IMG/VR virus record: IMGVR_UViG_3300029319_000332
Span: 7,586-29,420 of that record
Source: a virus
Direction: 5' to 3' (one strand)
DNA length: 21,835 nucleotides
The notes beneath the pieces are model-generated. The model did not search any database, was not told the origin of the DNA, and saw nothing but the letters and a program-made list of their open reading frames with translations. Each line of letters starts with the position of its first letter. The first letter of the stretch is position 1. Of this stretch, positions 7,478 through 20,887 are shown piece by piece. Made by a program: the position numbers and the translations under genes.

Positions 7478-7609
7478 ATGAAAAGTAATATGCAATATTT
7501 AATTTGGTCTTCTATTCTAGAACAACTAGAGAAGCACAATAATACCAGTGGACATTACTACAATATGGTATATGCAAACGTTAAACAACATGAACCAAAA
7601 AAATCTTAG
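7478..7609 (+). CDS. Possible 43-residue protein, unknown
   Basis: A short ATG-initiated frame encodes 43 residues, starting MKSNMQYLIWSSILEQLEKH and ending in a basic KQHEPKKS. The first 20 residues could form an amphipathic helix. No family is recognised. The start codon lies 20 nt after a late-promoter-like box, but no Shine-Dalgarno is visible. Its end overlaps longer versions of the next ORF in another frame, so probably at most one of the overlapping parts is conserved. It may be a chance frame. Confidence 0.35.
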   Translation: MKSNMQYLIWSSILEQLEKHNNTSGHYYNMVYANVKQHEPKKS

Positions 7610-11394: not shown

Positions 11395-11621
11395 GTGGAG
11401 ATTACGAATCATATGAATGGAATGATACCCCGTGGGGAAGATTCCGTATCGAGAGCCAACGCTCTGGAACGTGGACTAGCTACAGTGAGGATGGTAAGGG
11501 AATCGTCACCTGCTATTCGAGGGAAGTTTGTATTGAAGTCACTAGATTCCACCTGGAAGGTGTCGCAACCGACTGGTCAACTTCTGGAATCGCTGACGAG
11601 ACAATGGGAGAAAAGAGATGA
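11391..11621 (+). CDS. Small 76-residue protein, unknown
   Basis: The product is 76 residues long and rich in aromatic residues, Ser, Thr and Glu, with strands such as WGRFRIESQRSGTWTSYS and GIVTCYSREVCIEVTRFHLE, suggesting a small beta-sheet fold. There is no signal peptide or membrane segment. It is bracketed by ATGA overlaps with the preceding 50-residue gene and with gene 47. An overlapping frame from 11395 gives a less plausible basic peptide and is treated as a shadow. Function unknown. Confidence 0.72.
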   Translation: MSGDYESYEWNDTPWGRFRIESQRSGTWTSYSEDGKGIVTCYSREVCIEVTRFHLEGVATDWSTSGIADETMGEKR

Positions 11622-12658
11622 AGATTGCAGTAATAACTGATCAACATCTAGATGCTCGTAAAGGAAACCCAGCGTTCTGGGAATTCTTTCAGCAGTTCTA
11701 TGATAATATATTCTTTCCTACTCTCGAAAAAGAAGGTGTAGAAACTATTATTGATTGTGGCGATACTTTTGATAATAGGAAAACAATTGATTTTAATACC
11801 TACAATCGAATTACAGATAATTACTTCTCACGATTAAAGGATTATAATGTGCATATGATTCTTGGTAATCACTGCACATATTATAAGAACACTAATAAAA
11901 TTAATTCACCAGAGCTACTTCTAGACAAGTATGATAATATTAATGTCTATGCTGAGGCAGAAGAAATTAAGTTAGGTAGTAAAACCTTTCTTATGCTTCC
12001 ATGGATTAATAAGGAGAATAAAGAGAATGTTCTTAAGATTCTTGAAACCAGTAACGCAGATATCCTATGTGGTCATCTAGAACTTGCTGGATTTGAGATG
12101 ACTCCTGGTCTTATGATGGATCATGGTATGGATAGAAATCTATTTCATAGATTTAATCGTGTCTGGTCTGGACACTACCATCACAAATCAAAGCATGGTA
12201 ACATACAGTATCTTGGTAACCCATACCAAATTTACTGGAATGACTATAAAGATCAAAGAGGATTTCATATCTATGATACAGAAGCAGATACATTAACTTG
12301 GATTAAGAATCCATATGAAATCTTTCACAAGATCTACTACAATGATATCGAAACAAATTATGATAAAGTAGATGTAAGTCCTTACAAGAATTGCTTTATC
12401 AAGATTATTGTTGAAGAAAAAAGAAAGTATGCTCAGTTTGACTCATTCATTGATAGAATGTATAGGGCAGGAGTTCATGATATTAAAATCATTGAGACTC
12501 TAGTCGATTCAAATATTGATGATGATGCGGACATTGATGTTAAGGATACATTAACTCTACTCAATGAGTACATCGACGAAGTTGAGGTATCCGTAGACAA
12601 GTCCGACCTAAAAAAATTGATGCAGACATTATACATAGAGTCATGTGAGGTAACATGA
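11618..12658 (+). CDS. 47: Recombination endonuclease subunit gp47 (SbcD/Mre11 family)
   Basis: The 346-residue product is the nuclease subunit of the gp46/gp47 complex, which resects DNA ends so that UvsX can start strand invasion. The metallophosphoesterase motifs are in order: D8-Q-H10 (motif I), DCGDTFD (46-52), LGNH (82-85), GHLE (152-155) and SGHYHHK (184-190), giving the two-metal site. The rest is the capping and dimer region. Length is near T4 gp47 (339). The ATG overlaps the preceding stop, and GGGAG lies upstream. The gp46 partner follows after one small gene. Confidence 0.95.
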   Translation: MKIAVITDQHLDARKGNPAFWEFFQQFYDNIFFPTLEKEGVETIIDCGDTFDNRKTIDFNTYNRITDNYFSRLKDYNVHMILGNHCTYYKNTNKINSPELLLDKYDNINVYAEAEEIKLGSKTFLMLPWINKENKENVLKILETSNADILCGHLELAGFEMTPGLMMDHGMDRNLFHRFNRVWSGHYHHKSKHGNIQYLGNPYQIYWNDYKDQRGFHIYDTEADTLTWIKNPYEIFHKIYYNDIETNYDKVDVSPYKNCFIKIIVEEKRKYAQFDSFIDRMYRAGVHDIKIIETLVDSNIDDDADIDVKDTLTLLNEYIDEVEVSVDKSDLKKLMQTLYIESCEVT

Positions 12659-12659
12659 C

Positions 12660-12926
12660 GTGTATATTCTTACTCTAACAGGCAAACCAGAACAGGTATT
12701 TTCTCTTGCTAACCTTTCAGACCGTCAAGTGGTCCCAATGTTTGAACAAGAAGAAGATGCTGAACGCTATGTTTATCTAATAGATGAATGTACAGATCCT
12801 ATGGCTCCAGAATTGGATGTGATAGAGATTGAAAAAGATGCTATAATAAAAGCATGTAAGTCTATGGGTCACGATTACGTTGTGTATTCAGAAGACGATT
12901 TGATTATTCCACCTCTCAGTTTATGA
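12660..12926 (+). CDS. DUF3110-like small protein (cyanobacterial family)
   Basis: The 88-residue product starts at GTG with GAGG 9 nt upstream; no in-frame ATG fits better. The pattern MYILTLTGKPEQVFSLA, then VVPMFEQEEDAERYVYLIDE, then a last part with VIEIEKDAIIKACKSMGHDY, resembles the DUF3110 family of cyanobacteria and plants (strand, F-E-x-x-x-D-A-x-R-Y helix, then a strand and a cysteine-containing helix). The family's function is unknown. It is inserted between gp47 and gp46, coupled by an ATGA overlap to gp46. The match is from memory of the family pattern. If right, it suggests a gene acquired from a cyanobacterial host. Confidence 0.75.
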   Translation: MYILTLTGKPEQVFSLANLSDRQVVPMFEQEEDAERYVYLIDECTDPMAPELDVIEIEKDAIIKACKSMGHDYVVYSEDDLIIPPLSL

Positions 12927-14638
12927 TTACGTTTGAAAAAGTACGTTGGAAAAATTTTTTAAGTACAGGCAATACCTTCTCGGAAGTTGATCTTCGAGTT
13001 GCAAAGACTAATTTAATTGTTGGTAGTAATGGAGCAGGTAAAAGCACCATTCTAGATGCCCTTACTTTTGGTTTGTTTGGAAAACCTTTTCGTAAAATTA
13101 GTAAATCATCTCTAGTGAATAGTGTTAATGATAAGGACACTGTTGTTGAAGTGGAGTTTACGATTGGTAAAAATGAATACCAAGTAATGCGTGCTATCAA
13201 ACCAAACAAACTTGAGATATCAGTAAACGGACAGTTGTTTAATCAAGAAGCAGCAGTCAATGATCAACAAAAGAATTTTGAAAAGAATGTTTTGAAGATG
13301 AACTTCAAATCATTTACTCAGGTTGTAATCTTGGGTGCCTCAACATTTGTTCCCTTTATGAGAATGCCTCTAGGACAGAGGAGGGAAATTATTGAAGACA
13401 TTCTAGACATTCAGATCTTCTCTACGATGAATGATAACCTGCGAGCGAAGGTAAAGATTAATAATGAAGAACTTAGAGAGATTGATTATCAATTAGAACT
13501 AGTTAAGAATAAAATTGCTATCCAGAAAGAACATATGTTGAATCTGGAGAAGAGAGATAAGGAAGAAATTGACAGGAAGAAACAAAAAATTGCTGAATAT
13601 GAGCAGAAGGAAACAGATAACTCAGATATTATTACAAATCTCACACAACAAATCCTAAGACTTAATGAAGAAATGTTGGACTATAAACAGTCCAGTAAAA
13701 AACTCACTAAGTTGAACACATACTTGATGAAGTTAACACATAAACTTAACTCAATCAAGAAAGAACATAAGTTTTTTGAAGACAATCATGTGTGTCCTAC
13801 ATGCACACAAACCTTAGAAGATACTTTTAGAAAAGAAAAAATTTCTAGTGGTAAAAATAAAATACAAGAAATGGAAGAGGGATTTGATGAACTAAACAAT
13901 GCAATTGAAGAAGAACAAACTAGAGTTGAAAGATTCAATGAGTTATCTACAGAGATCAGTGATTTGAATAGTCAGGTAACGCAAACAAACTATGAGATAA
14001 CTTCAATAAGAAAAGCTATCACAGACATTAATAATGAGATCGACGAAATACATAATGATAATGCTGATGCAAAGGCAGAGTACTCTAAGTTAAAAGTTCT
14101 TGTTTCTGATAAGAAAGATTTGTCTGTACAACTAGATGAAACTAGAAAAGATAAAGATACATTAAGTGTTGCATCAAAACTATTGAAAGACAGTGGTATC
14201 AAGACTAGAATTATAAAAACTTATCTACCCACCATGAACAAGATGATTGCACATTATCTTGGAAACATGGAGTTTTACGTTAATTTTACTCTCGATGAAA
14301 ATTTTGAGGAAACGATTAAATCAAGGTATCGCGATGTTTTTTCTTACGAATCGTTCAGCGAAGGAGAGAAAGCTCGTATTGATATTGCTCTTTTGCTCAC
14401 TTGGCGTTCTATTGCTAAGCTTAAGAATAGCGTCGATACTAATTTACTTATCTTAGATGAAATATTTGATGGTTCTCTTGACCAATCAGGTACATCTGAG
14501 TTAGGATGGATCTTGAGAAATTTTGATGATCGTACTAATGTGTTTGTAATCTCACATAAAGAAGCTATGAGTGATAAGTTTGAGAGAACTCTCATTGTAG
14601 AAAAACCAAAGAATTTTAGTACTCTCCGTGAATATTAA
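12923..14638 (+). CDS. 46: Recombination endonuclease ATPase subunit gp46 (SbcC/Rad50 family)
   Basis: The 571-residue SMC-like ATPase partners gp47 in DNA end resection. The N-terminal ATPase half has Walker A GSNGAGKST (34-42). Two long coiled-coil arms (about 170-280 and 300-420) flank a zinc hook C291-P-T-C294. The C-terminal half carries the ABC signature SFSEGEKARID and the Walker B LLILDEIFDGSLD, with an ISH switch near the end. Length is near T4 gp46 (560). The ATG overlaps the preceding stop; no separate Shine-Dalgarno is seen, so coupling is likely. The 3' end overlaps the oxygenase gene by 11 nt. Confidence 0.96.
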   Translation: MITFEKVRWKNFLSTGNTFSEVDLRVAKTNLIVGSNGAGKSTILDALTFGLFGKPFRKISKSSLVNSVNDKDTVVEVEFTIGKNEYQVMRAIKPNKLEISVNGQLFNQEAAVNDQQKNFEKNVLKMNFKSFTQVVILGASTFVPFMRMPLGQRREIIEDILDIQIFSTMNDNLRAKVKINNEELREIDYQLELVKNKIAIQKEHMLNLEKRDKEEIDRKKQKIAEYEQKETDNSDIITNLTQQILRLNEEMLDYKQSSKKLTKLNTYLMKLTHKLNSIKKEHKFFEDNHVCPTCTQTLEDTFRKEKISSGKNKIQEMEEGFDELNNAIEEEQTRVERFNELSTEISDLNSQVTQTNYEITSIRKAITDINNEIDEIHNDNADAKAEYSKLKVLVSDKKDLSVQLDETRKDKDTLSVASKLLKDSGIKTRIIKTYLPTMNKMIAHYLGNMEFYVNFTLDENFEETIKSRYRDVFSYESFSEGEKARIDIALLLTWRSIAKLKNSVDTNLLILDEIFDGSLDQSGTSELGWILRNFDDRTNVFVISHKEAMSDKFERTLIVEKPKNFSTLREY

Positions 14639-15260
14639 TTTTGAACCGTTCTTTTCATCAGGTTATGTGCATACAGTATTACCAGAAGGAACTAGAAAAA
14701 CATTAGATAATTTAATCTGGTCTGCTGATAGAACAAAGAAAACCAGTCTATCTGGTATACAAACAGACAACTGGTTATTACCAGAAGCAACACCTCTCTT
14801 AGGTCCTGTAATTTTAGAACTGGTCAAGACTTATAAAGATACTCATAAAGAACTGACGGATGAGTATGAGCAGGAAGTTCAAAAAATTATTAGACCAAAA
14901 TATAATTTTGATTCTCTTAGTTTAGAAACTATGTGGGTTAACGTTACTGAAAAGTATATGTACAATCCACCACATAATCATCAAGGTGTATACAGTTGGG
15001 TTCTTTTCCATGATATACCATACTCTTTAGAAGAAGAAAGAAAAGATTATAGAGTTGCATCTTCAAATCAACCCTACCCAGGATGTTTTTATTTTATTCA
15101 TCCTACACATTCTGGACATACATATTGTCAAAATATTGAGATTGATTATAAGTCTAATGGACATATGATATTATTTCCCGCTAGGATCTATCACGGAGTA
15201 AATCCATATTATACAACTGATAAACCTAGAATTAGTTTAGCAGGTAATGTGACACTTTAG
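14628..15260 (+). CDS. Putative 2OG-Fe(II) oxygenase
   Basis: The 210-residue product starts at GTG, 11 nt inside gp46. Its C-terminal half resembles phage 2-oxoglutarate/iron oxygenases (the 2OG-FeII_Oxy_5-like group). MWVNV (102-106) is followed by PPHNHQGVYSWV (114-125), where H116 or H118 would be the first iron ligands, then ILFPARIYHGV (181-191) with the distal ligand H189, and R201-I-S, where the arginine would hold 2-oxoglutarate. The usual H-x-D is replaced by H-x-H, so activity is not certain. Such genes are common in T4-like cyanophages, but their substrates are unknown. The stop lies inside a hairpin motif that recurs before cobS. Confidence 0.75.
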   Translation: MNINFEPFFSSGYVHTVLPEGTRKTLDNLIWSADRTKKTSLSGIQTDNWLLPEATPLLGPVILELVKTYKDTHKELTDEYEQEVQKIIRPKYNFDSLSLETMWVNVTEKYMYNPPHNHQGVYSWVLFHDIPYSLEEERKDYRVASSNQPYPGCFYFIHPTHSGHTYCQNIEIDYKSNGHMILFPARIYHGVNPYYTTDKPRISLAGNVTL

Positions 15261-15308: not shown

Positions 15309-17570
15309 ATGCATAACACACAAACGGTCATGCATACAAATCAACCAGAAATCAAAGGCAATCTTGCTCGTCTCCTCGCTACAGAGAATCTTATCGTAGA
15401 ACATCGCAGAACTGCTACAGCATCCTTTGATGTAGATCGTCGTGTCTTGACTCTTCCTATGTGGGATCATGCTTCTGGAACTGTGTATGATATGCTTGTA
15501 GGTCATGAGGTAGGTCATGCTCTATTCACTCCTAATGAAGACTGGAGAGAGAAAGCACAATGCCCTCAAGACTTTATAAATGTTATCGAAGATGCACGTA
15601 TTGAGAAACTAATGAAGCGTAAGTTTCCAGGTCTTCGCAAGTCTTTTAATAATGGTTATCAAGAATTAAATAGTAGAGATTTCTTTGGTGTTGAAGATGA
15701 AGATACATCTGAGTTCAGTTTGATTGACCGTATCAATCTGCACTTCAAGATTGGTGCTAGTGCATTGATTCCATTTTCTATCGAAGAAAAGTTATTTGTT
15801 GCTCGTACAGATCTTGCTGAGACTTTTGAAGAAGTGTTAGAAATTGCTAAAGATGTTTTTAACTTCAGTAAGCAACAACAAGAAGAGCAGGCAACTATAG
15901 AAGTACCTGCAGAAGAAGATGCTGAAGAGTTTCAACCTAAAAATAATACTGGTGGACAATCTAAAAATGCATCTTCATCTTCATCTGATAAAGCAGGAGA
16001 GTCTAAGTCTAGTGACGAAGATCAACCAACTGTATCAAGTAGTTCATCATCTAGAGGTGGTGGTGCATCATCTGCTCCTAATCAATCAAAGTCATCAGGA
16101 ACAGAACTCGAAGATGTAAGAGATGATATGTATGATGAAGATGGTAATCTAACTGAACCTGAGAATTCACTTGAAGAATCTAAAACTCAACGTTCTTTCG
16201 ATAATGCAACAGAAGAACTATCTTCAAGAGGTCACAGAAGAGATCCAGTCTATGTTGAGATTCCTCAGAAAGTTGATGTAGATAATCACGTAGTTGATTG
16301 GAAAGTACTTCATGGTTGGATCAATGAGAATGCAGAAGATCCTGAGAGATATCTAGAAGTAGATGCTAGATATCAACTATTCAAAAAGCAATCTCAAAAA
16401 GAAGTTAACTATCTTGTAAAAGAGTTTGAGTGTAAAAAATCTGCTGATGCATATGCTCGTGCAGGTCAATCTAAAACTGGTGTTCTTGATACTGCAAAGT
16501 TACATACTTACAGATACAACGAAGACCTTTTCAAAAAAGTAACAATCCTTCCTGATGGTAAGAACCATGGTTTACTTTTCATTCTTGATTGGTCTGGTTC
16601 TATGTCTAGCGAATTACTTGCTACAGTAAAGCAAGTTTTAAATCTTACTGCATTCTGTAAGAAAGTTCAAATTCCATTTGAAGTATATGCGTTTACTAAT
16701 GAATGGTATGCCGCTAAGAGAGCAATGGAAAATAGTACTGAGAATAAAGATTTCAATGATTATCGTTATGGTTACTATTCTTCTCGTCATGAAGATGTTA
16801 AGAAGAATGAAATCTATCTTGATGCAAATTATTTTCACTTAATGAATTTTGTTTCATCTCGTTCTAACTCTCGTGAGTATGAGATGCAGTGCAGAAATCT
16901 TTTCCGTGAAGCATCTGTCTACAGACACAATACAGGATATGGTTCAACTTTTGGTATTGGTCTATCTGGTACTCCTTTGAATGAAGCAATCGTAATGTTA
17001 AATTACATCATCCCTGATTTCAAAAAGCAGAATGATTTACAGAAAGTAAATGTATGTGTTCTATCTGACGGCGAAGCATGCTCTAGTTCATACGGTCAAG
17101 AGATCTATGATGAACATGAAGATGAAACCAGAATTGTTTCACGTCGTGTTGATTTTGGTGTAATCCTCCGTGACCGTACAACTGGTCGTGTTTACAGTGG
17201 TTTTGATTATGATAATGCTACAAGTATTTTCATTCAGCAGGTTCGTGATCGTAATCCTTCTGTAAATGTTATTGGATTCCGTATTCTTCCAGGTGGTTGT
17301 CTTCAGCAGTTTGTTGGTAAGTATGCAGATTGGGATGACTATCCTAAAGTCCAGAAACAATGGAGAAAAGAGAAGTCTGCAATCATTCCTAATCCTAAAG
17401 GATACAGTGCTCTCTATGCTATCTCTAACAACTCATTAGTTTCAGAAACTGAATTCAACGTTGAGTCTGGTGCTAAGAAGGGTGAGATTTCTAGAGCATT
17501 CAAGAAGATGCTAGGTAACAAATCTACCAACAAAAAACTACTCAGTTCATTCGTAGAGTATGTATCATAA
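15309..17570 (+). CDS. CobT-like protein: HExGH metallopeptidase-like N-terminus and C-terminal VWA domain
   Basis: The 753-residue product has three parts. (1) Residues about 10-190 contain H66-E-V-G-H70 followed by N-V-I-E94-D-A-R-I-E, the arrangement of a gluzincin zinc peptidase with a downstream Glu ligand. (2) Residues about 195-300 are a Ser/Glu/Asp-rich disordered linker. (3) The C-terminal half is a von Willebrand factor A domain with a complete MIDAS: D427-W-S429-G-S431, T555 in G-T-P-L-N-E-A, and D587 in L-S-D-G-E. Paired with the cobS-like ATPase downstream, it resembles the CobT/CobS or MoxR/VWA partnership. Cobalt chelation is only one possibility, and no CobN is in the window. 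An in-frame ATG at 15330 is an alternative start; neither start has a good ribosome binding site. Confidence 0.85.
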   Translation: MHNTQTVMHTNQPEIKGNLARLLATENLIVEHRRTATASFDVDRRVLTLPMWDHASGTVYDMLVGHEVGHALFTPNEDWREKAQCPQDFINVIEDARIEKLMKRKFPGLRKSFNNGYQELNSRDFFGVEDEDTSEFSLIDRINLHFKIGASALIPFSIEEKLFVARTDLAETFEEVLEIAKDVFNFSKQQQEEQATIEVPAEEDAEEFQPKNNTGGQSKNASSSSSDKAGESKSSDEDQPTVSSSSSSRGGGASSAPNQSKSSGTELEDVRDDMYDEDGNLTEPENSLEESKTQRSFDNATEELSSRGHRRDPVYVEIPQKVDVDNHVVDWKVLHGWINENAEDPERYLEVDARYQLFKKQSQKEVNYLVKEFECKKSADAYARAGQSKTGVLDTAKLHTYRYNEDLFKKVTILPDGKNHGLLFILDWSGSMSSELLATVKQVLNLTAFCKKVQIPFEVYAFTNEWYAAKRAMENSTENKDFNDYRYGYYSSRHEDVKKNEIYLDANYFHLMNFVSSRSNSREYEMQCRNLFREASVYRHNTGYGSTFGIGLSGTPLNEAIVMLNYIIPDFKKQNDLQKVNVCVLSDGEACSSSYGQEIYDEHEDETRIVSRRVDFGVILRDRTTGRVYSGFDYDNATSIFIQQVRDRNPSVNVIGFRILPGGCLQQFVGKYADWDDYPKVQKQWRKEKSAIIPNPKGYSALYAISNNSLVSETEFNVESGAKKGEISRAFKKMLGNKSTNKKLLSSFVEYVS

Positions 17571-17571
17571 C

Positions 17572-17596
17572 CACTTGAGAAAGTGTCCACTAGGGG
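17572..17596 (+). repeat. Upstream motif, copy B (before the cobS-like gene)
   Basis: CACTTGAGAAAGTG (5-bp hairpin, GAGA loop) plus TCCACTAGGGG begins one base after the stop of the VWA gene. It matches copy A at 15253-15278 apart from a one-base gap and three substitutions. It runs directly into the hairpin and promoter of the cobS-like gene. Confidence 0.6.
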
Positions 17597-17611
17597 GTTG
17601 ATTTACCCCCT
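17592..17611 (+). promoter_or_regulatory. Hairpin overlapping the -35 box of the cobS-like gene
   Basis: AGGGGGT and ACCCCCT pair as a perfect 7-bp, mostly G-C stem around TGATTT. There is no T-run downstream, so it is a poor terminator. The -35 box TTGATT lies in the loop, so it may be an operator or a structured 3' end for the upstream mRNA. Confidence 0.6.
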
Positions 17612-17625
17612 TCATGCTCTATACT
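17598..17625 (+). promoter_or_regulatory. Sigma70-like promoter of the cobS-like gene
   Basis: TTGATT (17598-17603) and TATACT (17620-17625) are separated by 16 nt, close to the bacterial sigma70 consensus. Transcription would start about 20 nt before the ATG at 17651. This fits early or middle expression by unmodified host polymerase. Confidence 0.68.
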
Positions 17626-17650
17626 ATATTCATACAAACAAATTAATCCG

Positions 17651-18745
17651 ATGCCTTTTGAACCCGTTCCCGTTACAACCGAAGACTTAGTTACATACCT
17701 TTCTGAAAAGGTTGGTACTGAGGTAAATACAAAAGCTTTATTTGAGGCGTCTGAACATTTCAATTGTTCTCTTGCTACAGTAAAGAAAAGACTTAAAAAA
17801 TACAAGCAAGGTATTGGTAAGTGGAATCTAACTATCCAAGAAAAACTTGAGAAGACTTTCCAAGCACCTGCTGCTATTCCTGCTATTCAGCAAAATCTAG
17901 TTCCTGATAAGGATGCAAACTATGTTCCTTTCGGTAACTTTACTGATGTAAAAAAGATTCTTCAATCTAAAATTTTCTATCCTACATTCATCACTGGTTT
18001 GTCTGGAAATGGTAAAACATTTTCTGTTGAACAGGCATGTGCAACTCTAAATAGAGAACTAATTAGGGTAAACATCACAATTGAAACCGACGAAGATGAT
18101 CTTATTGGTGGGTTTCGTCTTGTTAATGGCGAAACTGTTTGGCACAACGGACCTGTGGTTGAAGCTTTGGAGAGGGGAGCTGTCCTCCTTCTAGACGAAG
18201 TTGACCTTGCGTCTAATAAAATTCTTTGCTTACAATCTATTCTTGAAGGCAAAGGTATCTTCCTTAAGAAGATTGGTAGATATGTACAACCTGCTCCAGG
18301 TTTCAACATCATCGCTACTGCTAACACAAAAGGTAAAGGTTCTGACGATGGTAGATTCATCGGTACTAATGTATTGAATGAAGCATTCCTTGAGAGATTT
18401 GCTCTAACATTTGAGCAGGAGTATCCTACTCCTAAAACAGAAATGAAGATTCTTGAAAAGGTTGCCGCTACTCTTGGTAAGAAAGACAAAGAGTTCTGTG
18501 AGAATCTTGCTAACTGGGCAGACATTATCCGTAGAACATTCAAGGACGGTGGTATTGATGAAGTCATTTCTACACGTAGACTTGTACACATCATGAGAGC
18601 ATATGCTATCTGGAATGATCGTATGAAGTCAATCAAAGTTTGTACTAACAGATTTGATGACGAGACAAAGCAATCTTTCATAGAATTATATGATAAGATA
18701 GATGCAGGAGTTGACCTTGATCAGGAGGAGTCTGTAGATGCTTAA
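17651..18745 (+). CDS. cobS: CobS-like AAA+ ATPase (MoxR/CobS family)
   Basis: The 364-residue product is the AAA+ ATPase often annotated in T4-like cyanophages as CobS, the ATPase subunit of the aerobic cobaltochelatase. Residues 1-60 hold a small helical domain with S40-L-A-T-V-K-K-R-L that could be a helix-turn-helix. The AAA+ core follows: Walker A GLSGNGKT (116-123), DDLIGGFRLVNG (149-160), Walker B VLLLDEVD (178-185), sensor region IIATANTKGKG (220-230) and N-E-A-F-L-E-R-F (243-250) with the likely arginine finger. Its upstream neighbour has a VWA domain with intact MIDAS, the usual partner of MoxR/CobS ATPases. It has its own sigma70-like promoter. Confidence 0.9.
   Translation: MPFEPVPVTTEDLVTYLSEKVGTEVNTKALFEASEHFNCSLATVKKRLKKYKQGIGKWNLTIQEKLEKTFQAPAAIPAIQQNLVPDKDANYVPFGNFTDVKKILQSKIFYPTFITGLSGNGKTFSVEQACATLNRELIRVNITIETDEDDLIGGFRLVNGETVWHNGPVVEALERGAVLLLDEVDLASNKILCLQSILEGKGIFLKKIGRYVQPAPGFNIIATANTKGKGSDDGRFIGTNVLNEAFLERFALTFEQEYPTPKTEMKILEKVAATLGKKDKEFCENLANWADIIRRTFKDGGIDEVISTRRLVHIMRAYAIWNDRMKSIKVCTNRFDDETKQSFIELYDKIDAGVDLDQEESVDA
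18723..18730 (+). promoter_or_regulatory. Near-perfect Shine-Dalgarno inside the 3' end of cobS
   Basis: AGGAGGAG lies 7 nt before the ATG at 18738 and inside the cobS-like coding region. It is the strongest ribosome binding site in the window and decides the start of the 56-residue gene. Confidence 0.75.
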
Positions 18746-19214: not shown

Positions 19215-19931
19215 ATGACCGCTATTGCTACGAAGATGAGCACTCTAACTTTTTCTGAGAAAACTTATCAAATTTTGATGAACTTCTCAACTATTAATTC
19301 TTCGATTGTTTTTAAAAAAGGTAACCTAATCCGTACTATTGCTAATGCACAAAACATTCTTGGAGAATATATTTCTGAGGAATATATCCCTCAGGATTTT
19401 GCTATCTATGATCTTTCTGAGTTCATTTCTGCAATCGGTATTTGTACTAGAGATAGAATCTTTCCATCACTTCATTTTGATAATGATGATTACGTAACTA
19501 TTAAAGGTGGTAATCTTTCTATCAGATATTATTTCAGTGATCCTCAGATTACTCTTAAGTCTGCAGGAGAAAAAAATGTAAACTTTCCTGGTTCAAATAT
19601 TTCATTTACTATTGACCAAAATGATCTAAAGAACTTGCGTGATGCACTTGCTAAGTTTAATCTTCCTGAGGTTCTATTCAGATCTCGTGATGGAAAGATT
19701 AGTGTACACGGTGTTGATAGTGAGAATGCAACCAGTAATACATTCTGGATGGATTTTCCTAATGGACAATCTACAGGTGACTTTGATCTAACTCTTAACA
19801 CAGAGAACTTACGTGTTGCTAGAAACCACGATTATCATGTTAAAGTTTCTGAGGAATTATTGAGTGAGTGGACAGTTGTTGGACCAAATGATTTACATCT
19901 AAAATATTTTATCGCACTTGAACCTAAGTAA
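19215..19931 (+). CDS. 45: Sliding clamp gp45
   Basis: The 238-residue product forms the trimeric ring that tethers the phage DNA polymerase and, in T4, also activates late promoters through gp55. Similarity to T4 gp45 (228 residues) is visible in LMNFSTINSSIVFKKGN (T4: LKNFATINSGIMLKSGQ), DFAIYDLSEFISAI (T4: DVAIYDLNGFLGIL), the DGKISVHG segment and the C-terminal YFIALEPK (T4: YVVALEAD). An in-frame ATG at 19236 is an alternative start and would remove the first 7 residues, which have no T4 counterpart. The stop overlaps the gp44 start as TAATG. Confidence 0.95.
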   Translation: MTAIATKMSTLTFSEKTYQILMNFSTINSSIVFKKGNLIRTIANAQNILGEYISEEYIPQDFAIYDLSEFISAIGICTRDRIFPSLHFDNDDYVTIKGGNLSIRYYFSDPQITLKSAGEKNVNFPGSNISFTIDQNDLKNLRDALAKFNLPEVLFRSRDGKISVHGVDSENATSNTFWMDFPNGQSTGDFDLTLNTENLRVARNHDYHVKVSEELLSEWTVVGPNDLHLKYFIALEPK

Positions 19932-20887
19932 TGAAGAGAGAATTTCTTTGGGTGGAGAAATACCGCCCACATAAAATTAAAGATTGCATTCTCCCTGATG
20001 GATCTAAAAAATCTTTCCAGGGTTTTCTTGATCAGGGGGAAATACCTAACCTCCTTCTAAGTGGTCCTGCAGGTGTTGGGAAAACAACAGTTGCCCGTGC
20101 CCTCTGTGATGAAATAGGTGCCTCCTATCTCCTTATAAATGGGTCTGATGAAGGTCGTTCGATAGACACTATTAGAACTAAAGTAAAACAGTTTGCTACT
20201 AGTGTTTCACTGACTTCGAGTGCTGCTCATAAAGTAGTCATTCTGGATGAAGCAGATAACATGACTTACGATGTTCAGATGATTCTTAGAGCAGCGATTG
20301 AAGAGTTTCATATTAATTGTAGATTTATATTTACTTGCAACTTTATCAATAAACTGATTGACCCTATAAAGTCACGTTGTACTGTTGTTGATTTTACAAT
20401 CAAACCTTCTCATAAAGAGAAACTACAGGAAGAGTTCTTCTATCGTATTCGTGATATCTTAAATGCAGAATCAATTAAATATGATGATAAGATTATTGCT
20501 AAACTTATCAAAAGATATTATCCAGATTGGAGACGTCTTTTAAATGAAGCACAAAGATTTGCATCATCAGGTGAGATTGACTCAGGCATTCTAATAGATA
20601 TCGCAGATATTAATATTGATGATCTGATTCGAGCAATGAAAGATCGTAACTATTCTACAGTTAAGTCTTGGGTTACACAGAACATGGATCATGATCCCTA
20701 TATGGTAATGAGAAAGATCTACGATGTTCTATACCAACACGCTAGTAATGCTAGTGTCCCTAACTGTGTATTGATTATTGCTAAGTATCAATATCAAATT
20801 CAGTTTGTTGCAGATCAAGAAATTAATACCCTAGCATGTCTTACAGAGATTATGTTAGATGGAGTTGAATGGAAAACTAAAGCATGA
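19931..20887 (+). CDS. 44: Clamp loader large subunit gp44
   Basis: The 318-residue AAA+ ATPase opens and loads the gp45 clamp at primer-template junctions. Motifs: VEKYRPHKIKDCILPD at the N-terminus (T4: EQKYRPSTIDECILPA), Walker A GPAGVGKTTVARALCD (45-60), NGSDEG (70-75), Walker B VVILDEADN (102-110), and S148-R-C, the conserved SRC motif whose arginine acts in trans. Length matches T4 gp44 (319). It is coupled to gp45 upstream. The second loader subunit, gp62, is not seen directly downstream, unlike T4. Confidence 0.96.
   Translation: MKREFLWVEKYRPHKIKDCILPDGSKKSFQGFLDQGEIPNLLLSGPAGVGKTTVARALCDEIGASYLLINGSDEGRSIDTIRTKVKQFATSVSLTSSAAHKVVILDEADNMTYDVQMILRAAIEEFHINCRFIFTCNFINKLIDPIKSRCTVVDFTIKPSHKEKLQEEFFYRIRDILNAESIKYDDKIIAKLIKRYYPDWRRLLNEAQRFASSGEIDSGILIDIADINIDDLIRAMKDRNYSTVKSWVTQNMDHDPYMVMRKIYDVLYQHASNASVPNCVLIIAKYQYQIQFVADQEINTLACLTEIMLDGVEWKTKA

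Follow-up and report, generated by a model that had tools for sequence, protein, structure and literature searches.

What does a CobS-like ATPase do in a phage when its neighbor is a CobT-like protein that bears a zinc-peptidase motif? We examined this pair in a window of 21,835 nucleotides (positions 7,586 to 29,420 of IMG/VR virus record IMGVR_UViG_3300029319_000332; coordinates below are those of the window), a fragment of a T4-like cyanomyovirus from a 29.4-kb record. The pair itself is already known as a cyanophage core pair, "peptidase/cobS" or "cobST," and the window proteins are ordinary members of phrog_459, labeled "peptidase," and of the cobS family phrog_249, labeled "porphyrin biosynthesis" (PMC3037559, PMC8651126). 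No experimental test of the function of either family was found in the literature searched, and the term "under-described," used in an initial annotation made from the sequence alone, is right for function. The reading that we favor, which we judge to be evenly poised between right and wrong, is that the pair forms an ATP-driven remodeller of the NorQ-NorD/CbbQ-CbbO type, which retains a site of metallopeptidase type in its vWA partner and has proteins at phage DNA as its targets. On this reading it is not a cobaltochelatase, and more likely cuts or remodels proteins. The features of the pair are as follows.

15309..17570, +, CobT-like protein P0001, 753 aa, phrog_459 "peptidase" (E 6.9e-270; AlphaFold mean predicted local distance difference test score [pLDDT] 81.7)
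15348..15899, +, N-terminal candidate metal-site domain, residues 14-197 (AlphaFold model, alignment)
15504..15518, +, HEVGH, residues 66-70 (sequence, alignments)
15579..15605, +, NVIEDARIE, residues 91-99, with D95 invariant and N91, E94, and E99 nearly so (alignments)
15900..16172, +, low-complexity Ser/Asp/Glu-rich linker, residues 198-288, predicted disordered (pLDDT <50 for 199-286)
16470..17567, +, conserved lead-in SKTGxLDTxKLH and vWA domain, residues 388-753 (AlphaFold, Foldseek)
16587..16601, +, metal ion-dependent adhesion site (MIDAS) motif DWSGS, residues 427-431 (alignment)
16971..16973, +, MIDAS T555 (alignment)
17067..17069, +, MIDAS D587 (alignment)
17651..18745, +, CobS-like MoxR-class AAA+ ATPase P0002, 364 aa, phrog_249 (AAA_5 E 8.6e-20; phrog_249 E 3.3e-138)
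17678..17827, +, predicted winged helix-turn-helix (HTH), residues 10-59 (model order H-E-H-H-E-E, pLDDT ~82-88; weak HTH matches)
17996..18019, +, Walker A GLSGNGKT, residues 116-123 (sequence, alignment)
18185..18205, +, Walker B LLLDEVD, residues 179-185 (sequence, alignment)

Conservation of the candidate metal site

Both open reading frames (ORFs) are intact, run in the same direction, and lie 80 bases apart. The residues singled out by the initial annotation (H66, E67, H70, E94, D427, S429, S431, T555, and D587) stand exactly where it placed them, and its pairing of a MoxR/CobS-type AAA+ ATPase with a vWA partner bearing a zinc-site pattern was borne out. An HExxH motif alone is cheap, with about 0.03 expected per shuffled copy of P0001, so conservation is the real test and is what excludes chance. 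Loci were fetched by way of the AAA+ ATPase and the partner was then inspected, which leaves no bias toward the zinc motif; counts at HExxH take in only proteins with letters at those columns. HExxH was intact in 36/36 cyanophage proteins and in all 53 of the 53 phage-plasmid-type proteins of this sample. Another set of loci (L017 to L096) was gathered with the HEVGH pattern, and its 78/78 conservation is not counted as evidence; many of its rows are included in alignment A7, whose 86 rows all share P50, H66, E67, H70, E94, D95, E99, D427, S429, S431, and D587.

Just four residues, H66, E67, H70, and D95, never vary across 40 diverse N-terminal domains, which come from cyanophages, from phages of Rhizobium, Gordonia, Vibrio, and Escherichia, from phage-plasmids, and from IncC and Marinobacter plasmids. 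E94, first proposed as part of the site, is not the invariant acidic residue, since GTE7 (a Gordonia phage) and MJW (a Vibrio phage) have Ile or Val there; D95 is. N91 and D95 lie 21 and 25 residues past H70, and this N91-x3-D95 spacing recalls the gluzincin ExxxD motif; both are candidate third ligands. The MIDAS had been described as complete, and its residues are all present in the window, but position 555 is T or S in cyanophages and Asn in the 13 distant relatives in A7. What is new here is that an intact HExxH plus Asp is kept in every cyanophage copy examined, in very different phages, and in plasmids, bar one Acinetobacter copy. Neither the split between this site and true CobT, nor the link to CbbO, nor the winged-helix ATPase was found in the literature searched.

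The AlphaFold model of P0001 (86 sequences) predicts an N-terminal domain at residues 14 to 197, disorder at 199 to 286, and a vWA domain from about residue 420. Within the N-terminal domain, small strands are followed by a helix at 57 to 73, which carries H66, E67, and H70, and by a helix at 87 to 105, which carries N91 to E99, so that in the model HExxH sits within one helix and D95, a candidate acidic ligand, follows on the other, as in zincins. Small strands ahead of such helices resemble minimal zincins. This domain is the best conserved part of the protein, with a mean identity to the window of 62% among cyanophages versus 52% and 44% for two vWA segments; the linker varies fast (14%). 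The best BFVD matches were other phage "peptidase," "CobT," and vWA proteins, including those of haloarchaeal and Thermus viruses.

Several candidate relatives were rejected. PDB profile matches of the N-terminal domain to RNA polymerase I, AcrIIA26, a Zn5 protease entry, and two metalloproteinase entries all had E values of >0.01 and were deemed chance, and a phmmer search of P0001 against the PDB returned nothing. DUF2201_N (PF13203), a Pfam family combining a putative metallopeptidase with a vWA domain, had no match in the window record.

Distance from true cobaltochelatase

Liu et al. (2021; PMC8651126) called the cyanophage "peptidase" label mistaken and proposed a viral cobaltochelatase for tailed viruses, in which CobST would hijack host CobN and raise cobalamin output. 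We consider this improbable. Against the curated profile for CobT (TIGR01651, cut-off of 759 bits), P0001 scored 8.7 bits (E 0.62), and against that for CobS (TIGR01650, cut-off of 558.55 bits), P0002 scored 76.5 bits (E 2e-21); both miss by a wide margin, in agreement with the initial view that these are not true CobT and CobS. HExxH is present in the N-terminal part of 0/80 alphaproteobacterial CobT proteins, and true CobT carries EQARVE where the window protein has EDARIE. The phages thus appear to keep exactly the residues that CobT lost, which points against the view that the label is mistaken.

The likeness to CobS-CobT (PDB 9uka) is nevertheless real: both are AAA+ plus vWA pairs, CobS is the nearest single-domain PDB sequence match, and profile comparison indicates that true CobT is a real but distant homologue of the mobile-element family in its N-terminal and vWA domains. 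This homology runs via the phage-plasmid forms, since hhalign matched the cyanophage to the phage-plasmid N-terminal domain (E 1.1e-13) and the latter to CobT (E 1.9e-5), while the direct comparison of the cyanophage domain with CobT was not significant (E 0.05). The overlay places phage HEVAH on a degenerate CobT segment and NxxEDxxIE on FDAVEQARVE. Phage-plasmid-type proteins also pass PF06213 and PF11775 (95 and 276 bits for Escherichia phage Cyrano). The Cyrano CobT-like protein (L010, 2374-4482) is annotated as a dimethylbenzimidazole phosphoribosyltransferase, two unrelated enzymes both being named CobT.

Cobaltochelatase works with the large subunit CobN. The initial annotation saw no such subunit in the window, and a search of ten phage records, some of them complete named phages, found no CobN although its positive controls matched; a host may still supply it. 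In favor of the proposal, a cyanobacterium used as a control had a CobN match and no CobT match. Relatives of the pair also reside on phage-plasmids and on IncC plasmids of E. coli and Klebsiella, and the lineages inspected share a replication context, neither of which favors a role in cobalamin synthesis. E. coli and Klebsiella are not known to use the CobN route for building the corrin ring.

Kinship with CbbQ-CbbO and NorQ-NorD

Walker A, Walker B, N225, R249, R294, and R309 are invariant in 62 aligned ATPases. P0002 has the features of the MoxR/clade-7 group, namely an AAA_5 domain, Walker A and B motifs, sensor and arginine finger residues, and a partner gene, next to it or close by in cyanophages, whose vWA product carries MIDAS DxSxS..T..D. 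Its model (pLDDT 80.6) matched NorQ in complex with the NorD vWA domain best in Foldseek, followed by CbbQ. The predicted winged helix has no counterpart in the aligned true CobS, and several HTH families recur weakly across 30 ATPase members. In phage-plasmid ATPases, a conserved C-x2-C-x4-H-x4-H takes its place at the N terminus, and the ATPase of RHEph10 matched ROS/MUCR with an E value of 0.029. That one ATPase carries either of two distinct modules resembling nucleic-acid binders may reflect a shared need.

A search of 249 genomes from the Sinorhizobium phylum with the profile of the mobile-element N-terminal domain gave matches in 41, and 30 loci were examined. Among these, 27 encode long vWA proteins with H-[MITAC]-A-[AGS]-H, 25 to 26 residues, and then E-D-[ASC]-R-[VI]-[ED]. 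Since one of them lies in a CbbR-Rubisco-CbbQ-CbbO operon (read from ORF translations), we identify this group as CbbO-type. Both His residues and the Asp are kept in 27/27, the Glu at the catalytic position in 0/27; an E at position 91, again reminiscent of the gluzincin ExxxD motif, occurs in 15/27. Profile comparison of CbbO with phage N-terminal domains gave E values of 2.2e-8 to 1.2e-9, versus 0.06 to 0.6 for reversed controls. CbbQ-CbbO, a Rubisco activase, therefore resembles our pair in having a homologous metal-site domain, a vWA domain, and an adjacent MoxR ATPase, but CbbO lacks the catalytic Glu, has a long extra N-terminal region, and is linked to Rubisco. The window protein, which keeps the Glu and has no Rubisco context, is not a CbbO. 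The other three loci (L327, L328, and L329) keep HExxH, and L328 adjoins toprim-like and DUF3150-like genes. An HExxH vWA protein also lies with toprim-like and DUF3150-like genes on a cellular contig (G248; L358, 3917-11851), probably in an integrated or plasmid-borne mobile element.

Parsimony, rather than a rooted tree, favors loss of the site in CobT and CbbO, because the intact site occurs in many unrelated mobile lineages. A bolder version of our reading, which we hold only tentatively, is that mobile-element "CobT" proteins are ATP-driven, DNA-tethered metalloproteases forming an unrecognized AAA+ class (a MoxR ring plus a vWA-zincin), with CobT and CbbO as pseudo-enzymes from the same zincin; CobT would have lost the whole site and CbbO the catalytic Glu alone.

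NorQ-NorD, which inserts iron into nitric oxide reductase, is similar in its hexamer-type MoxR ATPase and in a partner with an N-terminal domain, a disordered linker, and a vWA domain with MIDAS (PMC13036017, PMC9976466). It is among the best Foldseek matches for both window proteins; all PDB matches of P0001 were of the vWA type, with the NorD vWA domain among the best. The phage pair differs in the HExxH plus Asp of its N-terminal domain, in the N-terminal winged helix predicted for its ATPase, and in having no nitric oxide reductase target. Cryo-electron microscopy of NorQD placed a vWA finger in the AAA+ pore, and ATP hydrolysis was proposed to twist the vWA domain against the N-terminal domain, stretching the linker (PMC13036017).

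We propose a NorQD-like motor on the basis of this shared layout of N-terminal domain, linker, vWA, and MoxR (PMC13036017). The vWA protein would plug a hexameric AAA+ ring, the MIDAS and the N-terminal domain would hold the substrate, and ATP hydrolysis would pull or twist it through the flexible linker. Given that the full HExxH plus Asp metal site is kept, the N-terminal domain plausibly hydrolyzes a peptide bond, or at least binds a catalytic metal. The winged-helix N terminus could tether the ATPase to nucleic acid. The machine, made from the replication/recombination block, would most likely cut or remodel a host or phage protein on replicating or recombining DNA. The sequences themselves show the conservation, the homology, the layout, and the gene context; the folds are predictions, and the complex, metal, cleavage, DNA contact, and target are inferred.

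The same evidence can be read without proteolysis, as a remodeller or metal inserter in which His-His-Asp binds a structural or delivered metal and the Glu is structural, as in NorQD or CbbQO. We hold this to be unlikely, though the strongest of the competing explanations. The closest fold matches are NorQ/CbbQ and the NorD vWA domain, NorQD inserts iron by linker twisting (PMC13036017), and the persistence of His-His-Asp without Glu in CbbO indicates that the site can outlive catalysis. However, all mobile forms seen with both His residues intact have the catalytic Glu as well, while the position drifts freely in CbbO (M, I, T, A, C), and a purely structural site should not require it. No metalloenzyme target is encoded nearby.

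Several points weigh against the proteolytic remodeller that we favor. A metal bound by HExxH with N/E-x3-D might be structural or meant for delivery, with no cleavage involved, as the degenerate form in CbbO suggests. An Acinetobacter phage-plasmid relative (L015, 2980-4902) has a degenerate site (QEVAK and SLLEEARVER) but retains the vWA protein and the ATPase; this apparently independent loss in a mobile lineage suggests that the metal site can be dispensable. The peptidase fold that would go with the gluzincin-like zinc site of the initial annotation stays putative: no zincin structure matched the N-terminal domain in Foldseek against the PDB, and no zincin match was significant in Pfam or PDB profile searches. 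No single HTH match is strong (the best E is 0.002, and most lie at 0.01 to 0.2). Cyanobacteria do have CobN, which was matched in Synechococcus elongatus, a positive control of the CobN search, and gene context is association, not substrate. Overall, the observation of the initial annotation is confirmed, and its interpretation is partly supported.

Gene context and distribution

The order in the window is gp47, gp46, 2-oxoglutarate (2OG) oxygenase, CobT-like, CobS-like, gp45, and gp44, with the replication and recombination genes assigned by synteny with annotated phages:

11618..12658, +, gp47, SbcD-like nuclease subunit
12923..14638, +, gp46, SbcC-like ATPase
19215..19931, +, gp45 sliding clamp
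19931..20887, +, gp44 clamp loader

The pair's genes sit in a replication/recombination gene block. In three locus sets, counting only loci of at least 9 kb, the pair was present in 16/16, 32/32, and 71/71 loci and a replication or recombination gene in 15/16, 30/32, and 71/71. These are gp44 to gp47 in cyanophages and DNA polymerase III alpha in phage-plasmids, and the survey upholds the setting amid replication genes first noted in the window. In 450 phage records a match covered at least 80% of the CobT-like protein, and in 459 one covered as much of the CobS-like protein; by organism name, both gave the same cyanophage counts (365 Synechococcus, 61 Cyanophage, and 24 Prochlorococcus).

Spread across unrelated phages and plasmids, together with the fast-varying linker, would also suit a host-shutoff or counter-defense factor that eliminates one particular host protein, for example a nuclease or a defense protein, and does not serve replication. 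We give this very little credence: no defense-island context was seen, the link to replication genes is constant, and near-universal presence in cyanomyoviruses would be unusual for a counter-defense gene. The VMAP/ternary conflict system was considered and rejected, as its third component is absent here and CobT/CobS are unmentioned in PMC7159879.

In IncC-type plasmids (L014, 3639-6797; L326, 4855-7333) a MoxR-like ATPase and an HExxH vWA protein flank ssb-bet-exo and DUF3150, and a Marinobacter plasmid (L016, 1154-5644) has the ATPase, DUF3150, and the HExxH vWA protein around ssb-bet-exo. IncC/SXT-type loci thus also place the AAA+ and HExxH-vWA genes beside recombination genes, but split them by ssb-bet-exo and add a DUF3150 protein. 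Deletions of s067, s068, and s070 in SXT reduced transfer by at most 10-fold (PMC2791158), with genes matched to proteins by position only. The CobT-like protein of Pseudoalteromonas phage vB_Psh_XG4 (L007, 3917-7454) comes in two rearranged pieces, with a vWA ORF upstream of a separate HExxH-NIVED ORF, and its two domains may work as separate chains; the CobS ORF is in two frames, and the record is marked unverified. The ATPase of Vibrio phage MJW, used as query in a scan of viruses, had no matches, and in Staphylococcus phage CobS-like loci, where a CobT partner was sought, an HEAFH ORF proved PcfJ-like and no relative.

Some local features are recorded here. A 2OG-Fe(II) oxygenase-like gene (phrog_81, 14628-15260) lies directly upstream of the pair, and in P-RSM6 a 2OG oxygenase gene instead follows the pair directly. 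The 80-base gap contains a hairpin-like repeat, GGGGGTTGATTTACCCCC, at 17594-17612, which the terminator scan left unscored; sigma-70 and terminator scans gave nothing useful above shuffles. The stretch between the two genes resembles an insertion spot in cyanophages (L005, 6241-6930, and many other loci), holding pcyA in P-SSM4 and reaching gaps of up to ~3.5 kb in others.

The N-terminal domains of NorD and CbbO have been described as unrelated and not conserved (PMC9976466). A ladder of active sites, from HExxH plus Asp in mobile elements through HxxxH plus Asp in CbbO to nothing in CobT, would unite MoxR-vWA machines across that divide, and it offers exact residues for mutation (H66, E67, H70, and D95). 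Phage cobS is often reported as an auxiliary metabolic gene, and the idea that phages raise vitamin B12 in their hosts rests on it. Should the pair prove to be a replication machine that remodels or cleaves proteins, such claims would need revision for cyanophages and for the many phage-plasmids and plasmids that carry it.

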